Below are positions 21,941-56,413 of a stretch of 64,000 nt of DNA, in pieces. Position 1 is the stretch's first letter; each line of letters starts with the position of its first letter. Position numbers and translations under genes: made by a program. This stretch comes from Candidatus Merdivicinus intestinigallinarum (GTDB taxonomy: Bacteria; Bacillota; Clostridia; Oscillospirales; Ruminococcaceae). Location of the stretch: NCBI GenBank assembly GCA_018713335.1, contig DVOW01000050.1, positions 62,001-126,000 of the forward strand, given 5' to 3'. Under the pieces are notes generated by a model. The model was not told where the DNA came from. It saw only the letters and a list, made by a program, of their open reading frames with translations, and ran no database searches.

Positions 21941-22068
21941 TTTTTTGAAATGCTTCCGAAGAGAAGCGGCAAAATTTTCGTCCCCTTTTTTTAAAAGGCA
22001 GCAGAGGTAGAGGGAATGGAGTCCCTCTTCGCTTTCTGCGATTTATTTGCGAAAGCAAAGAACATAAG

Positions 22069-22093
22069 GCGGGCCGGGAGACCCGGCCCCTAC
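22069..22093 (-). repeat. REP palindrome providing the stop codon of the RHH gene
   Basis: Read on the minus strand: GTAG, GGGCCGGG-TCT-CCCGGCCC, GC. It is an inverted partner of the REP at 21915. The TAG of its GTAG foot is the stop codon of the neighbouring minus-strand gene. Confidence 0.72.
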
Positions 22094-22275
22094 ATTTTTT
22101 TCAAGGCAGTGATTGGTATTTCTCCGTAACGGCTTTCGTATTGCTCAACATGCTTTTTGATGCATCGCTCGATTTCCTTATTGGTGGAACGGCATTGCGA
22201 ATCTGCTATGCAACGGACTTTTTGCAGCAGAGTCCGGTCAATGCGCAGAGAGTAGCTTCGTTTATTTGTGTCCAT
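22090..22275 (-). CDS. Arc-like ribbon-helix-helix protein
   Basis: 61 aa. ATG at 22275 follows GAGGTG; the longer track ORF lacks an SD at its start. SYSLRIDRTLLQKVRCIADSQ followed by STNKEIERCIKKHVEQYE fits the beta-strand and two helices of Arc/MetJ-type DNA-binding dimers, with a short tail. Such proteins are usually antitoxins or small repressors, but no toxin is adjacent. The stop codon comes from a REP element, so the ancestral protein may have ended elsewhere. Confidence 0.7.
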   Translation of the reverse strand: MDTNKRSYSLRIDRTLLQKVRCIADSQCRSTNKEIERCIKKHVEQYESRYGEIPITALKKM

Positions 22276-22626: not shown

Positions 22627-23015
22627 TGCGTGACTGCGACAGATATGCGATGAAGCGAGAGGTTGCCGCCGGCCGTGAGGTCAAGATCCTGTTTTTCGGA
22701 CAGGTCCCAGCGCGGGTAATTTTCGCCGAGTATGTCCGATTTTAAACCGGGCGACAAAAGAGGAATACGATGGAAGTGCCCCATGCTTGTTCTGCTTATG
22801 CGGACTGCGGGCATACTTCAAGGCAAACTGCGCCTGTTGAGGCTGCAAGTGCCCCATGCCTGCCGGATGCGGCCAACAGCGGCGGGGAATGGTTATCGGT
22901 TCGGGCTCCCGGGAAACGACTGCGTTTTTCCGGTTTTTTATTTGTCTGGACGCGAAACACACGGAAACGTGTTCCGCTTGGTCTTGTCCCCAAAAATTCC
23001 GAGGAGGCGATGACA
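22627..23015 (+). promoter_or_regulatory. long structured leader of the S10 operon
   Basis: About 390 nt lies between the promoter and rpsJ. It includes a CCTGT/ACAGG hairpin near 22690-22710, a 13-nt direct repeat AAGTGCCCCATGC at 22774 and 22847, a terminator-like hairpin at 22909-22939, and an ACACG-GAAA-CGTGT hairpin at 22960-22974 within a GGAC/GTCC-closed arm. ORF 22770..23327 in the track merges part of this leader with rpsJ. A ribosomal-protein autoregulatory leader is likely, but the ligand cannot be read. Confidence 0.6.
22909..22939 (+). terminator. attenuator-type terminator within the S10 leader
   Basis: CCGGGAAACG and CGTTTTTCCGG arms with loop ACTG, then TTTTTT, 77 nt before the rpsJ start. 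A terminator inside the leader of an essential operon implies regulated readthrough. Confidence 0.6.
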
Positions 23016-41627: not shown

Positions 41628-43190
41628 ATGAACCGGCTGGACCTTTTGGATTCCACCCTGCGGGACGGTTCCCAGGGGGAGAATATCAGTTTTTCCGTCA
41701 ACGACAAACTCAATATCGTCAGGCTTTTAGACGGCCTGGGCATCCCGTATATCGAAGCCGGGAACCCGGCCTCCAACCCCAAGGACCGGGAATTTTTTGA
41801 GAAAGCCGCGGGCCTTGCCCTGCAGAACAGCCGGATCGTGGCCTTCGGCTCCACCCGGAAGCCCGGCCTGCCGCCGGAGGAGGACAGCGGCTTGCAGGCT
41901 TTGCTGGACGCCGGGACGGACACCCTGGCCATATTCGGCAAGGCCTCGGCCTTCCATGTGGAAAAGGTTCTGCGCACCAGCCGGGAGGAGAATCTGCGGA
42001 TGGTGGAGGACAGCATCCGGTATTTATTAAGCCATGGGAAACAGGTGTTTTTTGACGCGGAGCACTTTTTCGACGGCTTCCGTCAGGACCCGGAGTATTC
42101 CATGGCGGTGCTGGAAGCCGCCCAAAAGGCCGGGGCGGCCTGCCTGGTCCTCTGCGACACCAACGGCGGCACCATGCCTGGGGAGATTTTTGAAACAGTG
42201 AAGCGGGTTAAGCAGATGATTTCTGCGCCCATTGGCATCCACTGCCACAACGACGCCGGATGCGCCGAGGCAAACTCCATCCTAGCGGTGCAGGCCGGGG
42301 CCGTCCAGGTTCAGGGGACGTTGCTGGGGTTCGGGGAACGGTGCGGCAACGCCAATCTTTCTACCCTGATTCCGTCCTTGCAGGTGAAGCTGGGGTACCG
42401 GTGTATCCCGCCGGAAAACCTTCACAATCTGACCCAGTGCGCCCGGGCGGTGGGGGAGGCCGCCAATGTGGTGCTGGACAACGGGATGCCTTATGTGGGC
42501 CGCAGCGCCTTTGCCCACAAAGGGGGAATGCACATTGACGGGGTGCTGAAGGTCCCCGCGTCTTTCGAGCACATGGACCCTTCTGCCGTGGGCAATTCCC
42601 GCAGCCTCTTGATTTCCGAAGCGGCGGGACGGGCGGCGGTTTCCCGGGTTTTGGGGACCGATGGGAAAGACCCCAGCACTGCCGAGATCCTGCGCCTGGT
42701 CAAGGAACAGGAGCACCAGGGGTACCAGTACGAGTATGCCGCCGCCAGCTTGCAGATGCTGGCTATCCGCAGCCGGCCGGATTTCCGCCCTTATTTTACG
42801 GTGGTGTATTCCCGCACTATCGGAGAGCAGCGGGGGAATGGGGAAGGCTTGGGGAACGGTTCCTCCGCTGTTGTAAAAATCCAGGCTGGGGACAGCTTTG
42901 AGGTCTGCGGCGCGGAAGGGGAAGGCCCCGTCCATGCCCTGGACCGGGCCTTGCGGCAGGCTGTGGGGAAATTTTATCCCAGCGTGGAAAAGACACGGCT
43001 GACAGACTATAAGGTAAGGGTCATCGACCCCCAGGACGCCACTGCCGCACGGGTGCGGGTCTTGGTGGAAACTACCGACGGCAAGGACGTCTGGTCCACA
43101 GTGGGGGTTTCCCGGGACGTGATCCAGGCCAGCCTGCTGGCCTGCGTGGACGCCTTGGAATATAGGCTCTGGAAGGAGGCACAGCCGTGA
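41628..43190 (+). CDS. cimA: (R)-citramalate synthase-like enzyme (LeuA/CimA family)
   Basis: Condenses acetyl-CoA with a 2-keto acid; CimA uses pyruvate in the threonine-independent isoleucine route. 520 aa. LDSTLRDGSQGENISFSV at the N-terminus, FDAEHFFDGF, CDTNGGTMPG, IHCHNDAGCAEANS (metal His pair), GERCGNANL and FAHKGGMHIDGV. The C-terminal LeuA allosteric domain is complete. SVNDKL and the EHFFDGF segment favour CimA over LeuA. No leu or ilv genes are adjacent. Confidence 0.88.
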   Translation: MNRLDLLDSTLRDGSQGENISFSVNDKLNIVRLLDGLGIPYIEAGNPASNPKDREFFEKAAGLALQNSRIVAFGSTRKPGLPPEEDSGLQALLDAGTDTLAIFGKASAFHVEKVLRTSREENLRMVEDSIRYLLSHGKQVFFDAEHFFDGFRQDPEYSMAVLEAAQKAGAACLVLCDTNGGTMPGEIFETVKRVKQMISAPIGIHCHNDAGCAEANSILAVQAGAVQVQGTLLGFGERCGNANLSTLIPSLQVKLGYRCIPPENLHNLTQCARAVGEAANVVLDNGMPYVGRSAFAHKGGMHIDGVLKVPASFEHMDPSAVGNSRSLLISEAAGRAAVSRVLGTDGKDPSTAEILRLVKEQEHQGYQYEYAAASLQMLAIRSRPDFRPYFTVVYSRTIGEQRGNGEGLGNGSSAVVKIQAGDSFEVCGAEGEGPVHALDRALRQAVGKFYPSVEKTRLTDYKVRVIDPQDATAARVRVLVETTDGKDVWSTVGVSRDVIQASLLACVDALEYRLWKEAQP

Positions 43191-43999
43191 CCTTGTTTGT
43201 ATCGGATTTGGACGGCACCCTCATCGGCGGGAAACTGACCATCCCGCCGGACAGCGCGGCGGGGATCAACGCCGCCATTGCCCGAGGGGACGGCTTTGCC
43301 GTGGCCACTGCCCGGACGCCCGCCACGGTCAAGGGGATCCTGGAACCGGTCCATGGGGCCCTGCCCGCCATTGTCATGAACGGGGCCGGGGTATTCGACT
43401 TTGAAAGGGAAGAGTACATCTGGCTGGCGGAAATGAGCCGGGAAAAAGCCCAAACGGTGCTGGACGCGTTAGACAGTCTTAACATGGACGGCTTTTTGTA
43501 CACAGTGGACGGCTGCCGCATCAACGTCTATTACCGGGAACTGGAAAACCTGAGCCAGCGGATGTTTTTGGAAGCCCGCACCGGCAAGCCCTATAAAACT
43601 TTTTTCCAGGGGGAGGCCCCGGAAAAGGCCCGGCGGGTGTTTTTCTGCGTCATCGACTCGGAGGAACGCACCGCCCGTCTGGCGGCAGCCTTAAGGGAGA
43701 TACCGGGGCTTAACGTGTTCCATTACCGGGACGTCCACGACCCGGCAAACTGGTATGTGGAAGTGTACGACAAGTCCGCCTCCAAAGCGGTGGGGGTCCG
43801 GTTTTTAAAGGAGAAGTTTCACTTTGACCATGTCGTAGCCTTTGGGGACAACTTAAACGACCTGCCCCTGTTTGCGGCGGCGGACGAAAGCTACGCCGTG
43901 GCCGGGGCGGTGGAAGAGCTGAAAAACGCCGCTTCCGGCGTCCTGGAGGAACCGGACGTCGGCGCGGTAGGCCGGTTTATCGGGGCTTATGGAAAGTAG
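43187..43999 (+). CDS. Cof-type HAD-superfamily hydrolase
   Basis: 270 aa, GTG start overlapping the cimA stop; its SD AAGGAGG lies in the cimA tail. Motif I FVSDLDGTLIGG, motif II ATART, motif III Lys in SASKAVGVRFL, and motif IV FGDNLNDLPLFAAADESYAV. C2-type cap in the middle. Probably a sugar phosphatase or flavin phosphatase, unspecified. Confidence 0.9.
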   Translation: MTLFVSDLDGTLIGGKLTIPPDSAAGINAAIARGDGFAVATARTPATVKGILEPVHGALPAIVMNGAGVFDFEREEYIWLAEMSREKAQTVLDALDSLNMDGFLYTVDGCRINVYYRELENLSQRMFLEARTGKPYKTFFQGEAPEKARRVFFCVIDSEERTARLAAALREIPGLNVFHYRDVHDPANWYVEVYDKSASKAVGVRFLKEKFHFDHVVAFGDNLNDLPLFAAADESYAVAGAVEELKNAASGVLEEPDVGAVGRFIGAYGK

Positions 44000-44028
44000 G
44001 TTTTCGGAATCAATTAGGCTAGAAAAAG

Positions 44029-44049
44029 GCGGCTCTATCAAAGAGCCGC
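44029..44049 (-). terminator. hairpin terminator (minus orientation)
   Basis: GCGGCTCT/AGAGCCGC stem with 5-nt loop. On the minus strand it is followed by CTTTTTC; on the plus strand by TAAAACTTTTT. It could serve both directions. Confidence 0.55.
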
Positions 44050-44116
44050 TAAAACTTTTTGAAAGTAAAACTGCACAATAGAGGAAAATAGAAAGTTTTG
44101 GTCAAGCTTGTTTCAT

Positions 44117-44313
44117 GTCGTGAACAAATTCACGACCGCTTGCAGGATTTCCATTCCGTGAACAAAGTTCACGGCGGACAGAGTCCTTGGCCGTTTCCCG
44201 CAGGAAACGGAACCTTATCCCTTCGCGCCTCGGGCGCGAACAAAGAGAAAAAAAGGCGGCTCGCAAGCCGCCCGCGGATGACCCCGCGCCGTCATTTTGC
44301 TTGCAAAATGACG
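44117..44313 (-). repeat. array of six perfect short hairpins downstream of tadA
   Basis: Six perfect inverted repeats with loops of 2-4 nt: GTCGTGAA (44117-44136), CCGTGAAC (44156-44174), CCGTTTCC (44191-44210), TTCGCGCC (44222-44240), GGCGGCT (44255-44272) and CGTCATTTTGC (44290-44313). The first two are variants of one sequence and two others share the loop CGCA. None has a GTAG foot, so they differ from the REPs. No ORF or known RNA explains them; 44000-44398 has no other gene. Confidence 0.75.
44247..44272 (-). terminator. tadA terminator
   Basis: On the minus strand GGCGGCT-TGCG-AGCCGCC is followed by TTTTTTT. It is one member of the hairpin array. Confidence 0.75.
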
Positions 44314-44398
44314 GGTTAGAATTTTCCAAGTTTTTCTCCACGGTGCATTTGCGCCAGCAAAGCAGAGGCTTCGTACAAATTGCCAAACAACCACATAT

Positions 44399-44860
44399 TC
44401 ACACATTCCGCAGACGCTTGAAAAAGGAGGTCAGCAGCGCGGCGGATTCCTCCGCCAAAACCCCGCCGCAGACTTCCGGATGGTGGTTGAACCGTTCCCG
44501 GAACAGGTCGGTGACGCTGCCGCAGCACCCAGCCTTCCGGTCCGGCGCGCCGTAGACCACCCGTTTGATCCGGGCGTTGATAATGGCTCCGGCGCACATG
44601 GGGCAGGGCTCTAAGGTCACATACAGGGTGGCTTTGTGGAGCCGCCAGCCGCCAAGTTTCCGGCAGGCCTCCTCAATGGCTAGGATTTCCGCGTGGGCGG
44701 TGGCGCGCTTGTCCAGCTCCCGGCGGTTGTAAGCGGAGGCCACCACCTCTCCGTCCCACACCAAAACGGCCCCGATGGGGGTTTCATCCTGGGAAGCGGC
44801 GATTTTTGCCTGCTCTAAAGCCAGGCGCATGTACATTTCGTCTTGCTCTAAAGTTGCCAA
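44399..44860 (-). CDS. tadA: tRNA adenosine(34) deaminase TadA
   Basis: Makes inosine at the wobble position of tRNA-Arg, 153 aa. I use the TTG at 44860 (MATLEQDEMYMRLAL), 7 nt after AAGGAG; the track extends upstream without support. Zinc/catalytic motifs HAEILAIE and TLEPCPMCAGAI. Ends near KRLRNV. It lies 19 bp from the CPBP gene on the same strand. Confidence 0.94.
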   Translation of the reverse strand: MATLEQDEMYMRLALEQAKIAASQDETPIGAVLVWDGEVVASAYNRRELDKRATAHAEILAIEEACRKLGGWRLHKATLYVTLEPCPMCAGAIINARIKRVVYGAPDRKAGCCGSVTDLFRERFNHHPEVCGGVLAEESAALLTSFFKRLRNV

Positions 44861-55138: not shown

Positions 55139-55182
55139 ACAAAACAAAACGCCTGCCCCGGGGTAACTCGTGGATGGCGTTT
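55139..55182 (-). terminator. riboswitch expression-platform terminator
   Basis: Minus strand AAACGCC pairs with GGCGTTTT across a 22-nt loop containing CCCCGGGG, followed by GTTTTGT. It lies between aptamer and permease start and implies ligand-induced termination. Confidence 0.65.
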
Positions 55183-55194
55183 GATTTCCTTGGC

Positions 55195-55258
55195 GCGTAG
55201 TCTTCCGGATTCGGCCGGAAGGTAGAAACAATCAGCCCATTTTGCTGAAAATATACGC
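55195..55258 (-). promoter_or_regulatory. purine riboswitch aptamer (guanine class)
   Basis: P1 GCGTA/TACGC, P2 TCAGC/GCTGA with loop AAAATGG, the core GTTTCTACC, P3 CTTCCGG/CCGGAAG with loop CCGAAT, and the J3/1 GACTACG. The discriminating base is C (GAC), so guanine or hypoxanthine rather than adenine. GG of L2 and CC of L3 can kiss. L3 is 6 nt if P3 is fully paired, shorter than the usual 7. Confidence 0.9.
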
Positions 55259-55390
55259 TCTGTTTATCTTTAGTTTACCATATTTCGGCCCGGTTCGCCA
55301 GCCTTTTTCAAAAAATCCATGAAACCGACAAAATCTGTTCAAATCTTTTCAAAAAGGACGTGCAGAACATAGGAAAATCCCGCTTTCCGG

Positions 55391-56199: not shown

Positions 56200-56368
56200 A
56201 TGTTTGTAGGAAAAAGCGTGAGCTTGCCGAAGGAGTAACACTCTCAGGCGCCCGGATGCCGGGTGAGGACTATAAACGGATGCGGCTCTGGAGAACCCCG
56301 TTTCATCGGGTGCCGAAGGTGCAAGGCGGCAAAACCGCTAATCTCTCAGGCAAAAGGACGGAGCAGAA
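56200..56368 (+). promoter_or_regulatory. tandem glycine riboswitch
   Basis: Two aptamers in series. First (~56200-56276): GCCGAAGGAGTAA, then CTCTCAGGCGCCCGG and GAGGAC. Second (~56283-56367): GTGCCGAAGGTGCAAGG, then TCTCTCAGGCAAAAGGAC. GCCGAAGG and CTCTCAGGC are the conserved cores, repeated in order. Followed by a terminator and an AGCS symporter, a standard arrangement. Confidence 0.92.
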
Positions 56369-56413
56369 AAGACGGAAGCTGCCGGCATTTCGCCGGTTTA
56401 CCGCTGTTTTTCA

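Follow-up and report, generated by a model that had tools for sequence, protein, structure and literature searches.

A dispersed hairpin-array repeat with IS1182-type ends at gene 3′ ends in Candidatus Merdivicinus and its relatives

Stem-loop-targeting elements and palindromic repeats of bacteria

IS1272, a member of the IS1182 family, targets stem-loops, several of them confirmed as terminators, regardless of their sequence, and its insertion removes or replaces a portion of the targeted hairpin without producing a duplication (PMC5678879, PMC4923244). The hairpin array analyzed here lies in a 64-kb window (the whole stretch of DNA under study, 64,000 nucleotides) and belongs to a repeat whose apparent partner insertion sequences (ISs) resemble IS1272/TnSha1 of staphylococci in their IS1182 transposase family and their stem-loop target. 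In contrast to IS1272/TnSha1, a 29- to 35-bp terminator is found here on both sides, and the repeat itself has no transposase gene and a body made of a hairpin array. The repeat also resembles bacterial MITEs (PMC10969869) in being short, nonautonomous and intergenic, with IS-shared ends, target duplication and tens of copies. However, its body consists of nine covarying hairpins, related cores are present across the order, and most copies have lost the ends and kept the body. Stem constraint and apparent block exchange in a hairpin body are unusual for a MITE-like repeat.

REP/BIME sequences are palindromes that likewise occupy the 3′ ends of genes irrespective of orientation, and their evolution by gene conversion was proposed by Higgins et al. 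in 1988, going by the citation of that work in PMC2267715. The original prediction for this locus had set the array apart from REPs. As regards sequence, the distinction appears to hold; in lying at the ends of genes and in apparently undergoing conversion between copies, however, the element is REP/BIME-like. What separates the element from REP/BIME is a fixed order of nine different hairpins, together with IS1182-type ends. BOX elements are modular and fold-forming. They repeat one module, whereas the present element has hairpins that differ from one another, with alleles that appear to pass from copy to copy; the likeness to BOX and RUP of Streptococcus pneumoniae is that all are small interspersed repeats (PMC3049150). 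Our literature search, incomplete in its coverage, found no description of this element or of such a MITE.

Taken as a whole, we consider it probable that the array is part of a MITE of ~330 bp with IS1182-type ends that homes to terminators, with later conversion between copies and selection on its stems. The described systems would thereby gain a small element whose homing to transcription terminators duplicates them, a way of invading with little harm to host genes. Two open questions, namely how palindromes of bacterial genomes remain perfect and how frequently sequence passes between short dispersed repeats, could also be addressed in this natural setting. Both are directly testable, given the orthologous loci, the empty site and the autonomous partner described below.

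The hairpin array and its dispersed copies

The array is located between converging genes for a HAD-family hydrolase (43187–43999, plus strand; PF08282) and a tadA-type deaminase (44399–44860, minus strand; PF14437/PF00383). A scan of the window for perfect hairpins (stem of at least 7, loop of 2 to 5) revealed six within 200 nt at 44117–44314, compared with at most two per 200 nt elsewhere among the matches listed and maxima of one to three in 20 first-order Markov simulations of 64 kb. In addition, the folding energy of 44000–44330 is far below that of shuffles (z = −6.4 on the plus strand and −5.6 on the minus strand). These data bear out the original prediction of six perfect hairpins in about 200 nt at a density far above chance, and the two CGTGAA-type hairpins and the two with a common CGCA loop that it described are present. 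The hairpin it had assigned as the tadA terminator (44254–44273) scores as a minus-strand terminator toward tadA. The predicted unit, 44117–44313, falls short of the element, the core of which spans 44091–44361 on the plus strand (271 nt; 225–231 nt in its basal form) and comprises nine helices, two with an optional extra hairpin in the window copy. Besides the six hairpins, the core contains the outer helix pairing 44103–44107 with 44138–44142, the helix at 44273–44288, the palindrome at 44316–44329 and the helix at 44348–44361.

On the 5′ side of the window copy, a further perfect hairpin just outside the array (44029–44049) is terminator-like on both strands and corresponds to the hairpin that is duplicated on both sides in intact copies. 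The 5′ leader (44050–44090, plus strand), when aligned with copies that keep the terminal inverted repeat, contains the position of that repeat, which is decayed here (TAAAACTTTTTGAAAG). H1, the first covarying helix (44103–44142, plus strand), has the outer stem CAAGC/GCTTG and harbors in its loop an optional hairpin, GTCGTGAA-caaa-TTCACGAC (44117–44136). H2, the second (44150–44190, plus strand), is stretched by another, CCGTGAAC-aaa-GTTCACGG (44156–44174); both optional hairpins occur in only a part of the copies. H3 (44191–44210; loop CGCA) shows both-sided changes in six of eight pairs and is conserved across the order, while H4 (44222–44240) occurs as two main alleles, TTCGCGCC and TTCGCGGC. 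H5 (44255–44272), also with a CGCA loop, is the helix that is terminator-like toward tadA. It is followed by H6 (44273–44288; CGCGG-atgacc-CCGCG) and H7 (44289–44314), whose 12-bp stem has a variable outer 5 bp and double changes in 7 of 12 pairs. H8 (44316–44329) is a weak palindrome, TTAGAATTTTCCAA, with 86% of cells paired, and H9 (44348–44361; TTTGC-gcca-GCAAA) is almost invariant, with 99% of cells paired. The 3′ tail (44362–44398, plus strand) ends at the tadA stop codon and has no recognizable terminal repeat or second terminator copy; better-kept copies carry TTTTTCGACArnCTG at +37.

A DNA search returned ~30 matches in the same genome (G000) and more in the genus. RNA model R1, built from 23 basal copies, matches the window core at 204.5 bits and gave 97 rows in G000, of which the distinct strong matches represent ~45–50 full-length copies; low-scoring rows, mostly antisense shadows of the same sites, were left out of this count. 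Core length across copies is 225–310 nt, with no transposase gene inside. Sister species (Candidatus Merdivicinus, Oscillospiraceae) contain from 2 to ~50 copies each, with up to ~50 in G004, and R1 has weaker matches in several other genera of the family and in one other family, while most genomes have none. A shorter model for the order-wide search, R2, covers the first three helices and detects the repeat in 22 of 147 genomes sampled across the order, which represent 15 of 86 genera, often in at least 31 copies; Butyricicoccus pullicaecorum, Pseudoruminococcus massiliensis and Ruminococcus species are among the named carriers. The array, which the original prediction had proposed to seek in other genomes, is thus found in sister species and scattered across the order, where its distribution is patchy. 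Plasmid and phage collections queried with one basal copy (L049) gave no match, and one IMG/VR contig contains the order-wide head.

Many G004 contigs (e.g., C1, C46, C69 and C83) start or end within an element copy, indicating that the assemblies break at the repeat, so that true copy numbers may be higher. In the window, a weak R1 match at 21970–22096 on the plus strand (G000:C47:83970-84096; E = 4e-8) is possibly a decayed second copy.

Terminal repeats, IS1182 partners and insertion sites

In the best-preserved copies, terminal inverted repeats with the sequence CAGnyTGTCGAAAAA are located 37–38 bp outside the core on both sides, with a terminator hairpin beyond. Such repeats, with at most three mismatches at the expected position, are present in 30 of 81 copies and at both ends in 12; the other 51 have no recognizable terminal repeats, and neither has the window copy. 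In the order-wide set, an IS1182-type end accompanies 8 of 83 core copies, compared with none in a wrong-orientation control. A PF05598 search of the relatives revealed ISs of 1.5–1.6 kb with ends matching those of the element, and the three transposases tested against NCBIfam fall in the IS1182 family (NF033551; E = 1e-115 to 1e-118, well above the curated cut-off). The ISs in G003, G014, G047 and G037 have the same 29- to 35-bp terminator on both flanks; the terminators on the two flanks of the G052 IS differ. The element core was not found inside the IS elements, so the ends are the only sequence common to the two. In G000, searches with PF01609 and PF05598 were empty, revealing no IS1182-type transposase, and the terminal-repeat pattern gave no pair flanking a transposase and hits not above a reversed control; several of these hits sit at element ends. 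G004 contains three relics (L318 1261–1899, L317 and L319), which are internally deleted or fragmentary IS1182 sequences that adjoin terminators and share these ends; contig C32 carries two of the three, close to element copies.

The precise comparison of an empty with a filled site comes from one locus, L044 of G002, where a 35-bp terminator, AGGCGTCCTCCATCCGCTTGTGATGGAGGACGCCT, is present on both sides of the element. The matching empty sites in G004 (contig C67) and G000 (contig C53) each contain the terminator once, the latter as read directly and the former as deduced from overlapping match coordinates. At the window locus, G001 has a single bidirectional terminator between the two genes, and G004 and G002 carry the element. 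For the 20 copies flanked by two hairpins, the score is 12.7 when the pairs are matched and 5.6 when they are mismatched, and some copies are flanked by different terminators on either side. The 46 classified sites are 20 convergent, 24 codirectional and 2 divergent, in keeping with a location at gene 3′ ends. The bias toward convergent genes is strong, given that only 2 of the window's 41 gene pairs converge (p = 4e-5). The only sites scored divergent are those of two overlapping copies in opposite orientations in G000 (L267 1522–2022). At codirectional sites, the element has the same orientation as the genes in 11 cases and the opposite orientation in 13.

The shared IS1182 ends, the duplicated terminators and the empty site lead us to read the repeat as a MITE mobilized by IS1182-type transposases, and its history as a terminator-targeting, MITE-like insertion is well supported. 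The array would be the body of a nonautonomous transposon of ~330 bp with ends like those of IS1182-family ISs, whose transposases, presumably acting in trans, would insert it at Rho-independent terminator hairpins. Insertion appears to duplicate the hairpin on both sides, as suggested by the one empty/filled locus and by the repeated, similar flanking hairpins at several other sites. With the hairpin doubled on both sides, both neighboring genes would keep a terminator. After insertion, the ends would often decay and the stems would stay intact.

Stem pairing and block exchange

On the basis of their flanks, 12 loci of G000 could be paired with counterparts in G004. Their alignments show essentially no change at five loci and replacement of internal blocks at seven, with the leader and 3′ end nearly the same. 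The replaced block is H3–H4 in L020/L283, H2–H3 in L017/L288 and H1–H5 in the window copy, while L263/L281 has several replaced patches; L265/L297 is the least clear of the seven, as only its upstream flank matched. Across 45 copies of G000, most hairpin pairs are unlinked, i.e., near linkage equilibrium, with limited power for highly allelic hairpins; H1–H2, H4–H6 and H5–H6 alleles show some association. The sister set keeps more association, which shared descent and the mixed nature of that sample would predict.

In the R1 alignment of the 23 basal copies, 96.9% of cells in the 67 pairs are paired, compared with 82.7% in shuffles. Double changes occur in 35 of these pairs, with 225 cells changed on both sides compared with 68 in shuffles. 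The covariation score is 0.412, compared with 0.145 in shuffles and no more than 0.101 after a shift of one to three columns, and the order-wide head (R2) gives 0.407 compared with 0.134. Every helix has its own alleles, from two main ones in H4 to more than 30 arm strings in H7. Thus, stems that covary while loops stay fixed, which the original prediction had named as a check, are observed in the basal copies and in the order-wide head. In the five unconverted orthologous pairs, differences amount to 0.8% in stems, 4.5% in the unpaired core (p = 5e-5) and 7.8% in the leader, the choice of unchanged pairs biasing toward low divergence equally for stems and unpaired bases; the tail, which contains one nonhomologous sequence, was set aside. 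Within individual copies, stem divergence is therefore about sixfold below that of unpaired core bases. Stem pairing in copies without recognizable ends is 97.8%, compared with 96.6–97.5% in copies with ends (p = 0.32).

Of the origins named in the original prediction, a noncoding RNA might seem the natural source of strong covariation and conserved loops. In such a reading, a multicopy structured RNA of ~230 nt with nine helices, encoded on the plus strand, has spread by duplication, and both the constraint on stems within resident copies and the extra hairpins at helix tips, like expansion segments of RNAs, would be in keeping with it. A one-strand RNA should, however, tolerate and clearly favor G-T pairs. 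Outside H2 and H8, we counted 4,219 Watson–Crick, 42 G-T, 27 A-C and 36 other pairs (H2, whose bulged register produces spurious G-T pairs, and the weak H8 were omitted), so that the G-T excess is weak and there is little strand asymmetry. Pairing thus appears to be important on both strands or at the DNA level. Together with the unbiased orientation to genes, this makes a one-strand RNA improbable; moreover, a search of the window copy gave no promoter-like site, and Rfam gave no relevant match for the window or the relatives' copies at the gathering score or a relaxed E-value. Near symmetry between strands would suit replication slippage on imperfect palindromes, in which one arm is copied onto the other and perfect stems spread by conversion in the absence of selection, as would the paucity of one-sided intermediates and the fact that copies devoid of their ends still pair perfectly. 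We regard this as unlikely, though less so than the RNA, because the few stem differences in the five unconverted pairs mostly affect one arm, the alignments reveal no evident new double changes, and the low divergence of the stems calls for constraint. We infer instead that selection on pairing keeps the stems, and our best guess is that it does so because they probably act as a two-way barrier or stabilizer at gene 3′ ends.

The replaced blocks at orthologous loci likely reflect ectopic gene conversion between copies, most simply in short tracts that would replace whole hairpin blocks. Because terminators are the preferred target, separate copies inserted independently into the same terminator could in principle yield such differences, but the leader and 3′ end are nearly identical and the breakpoints lie inside the core, for example in L020/L283 and L017/L288, which renders reinsertion very unlikely. 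A more far-reaching form of conversion is conceivable, if doubtful: each of the nine fixed positions might draw its stem alleles from a small pool, with conversion between dispersed copies swapping blocks at breakpoints between hairpins and selection keeping both strands foldable. If so, the repeat would be not a MITE in decay but a hairpin array of a new kind, dispersed and recombining. The evenly spaced hairpin series could also recall a degraded integron-like or CRISPR-like array, yet the stems differ within the array and each position is common to dispersed copies, so that we give this derivation almost no credence. Indeed, the locus has no family of identical repeats with unique spacers, in agreement with the distinction from CRISPR drawn in the original prediction. 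Two further suggestions made there survive in altered form. A recombination target is supported in part, by the block exchange and near linkage equilibrium, and a hairpin-insertion hotspot applies in another sense, the array probably having inserted as a unit with a terminator hairpin as its target; optional hairpins also come and go within helix loops.

In two of the order-wide copies, L221 and L227, the H1–H2 region is replaced by or followed by a long repeated module, caccgaccgaaccggcaggtgagacc, which suggests further modular exchange. Elsewhere in the window, glycine (56278–56371, plus strand) and purine (55178–55278, minus strand) riboswitch aptamers score above the Rfam gathering score, and an S10-Clostridia ribosomal protein leader (22642–22757, plus strand) scores just above it.
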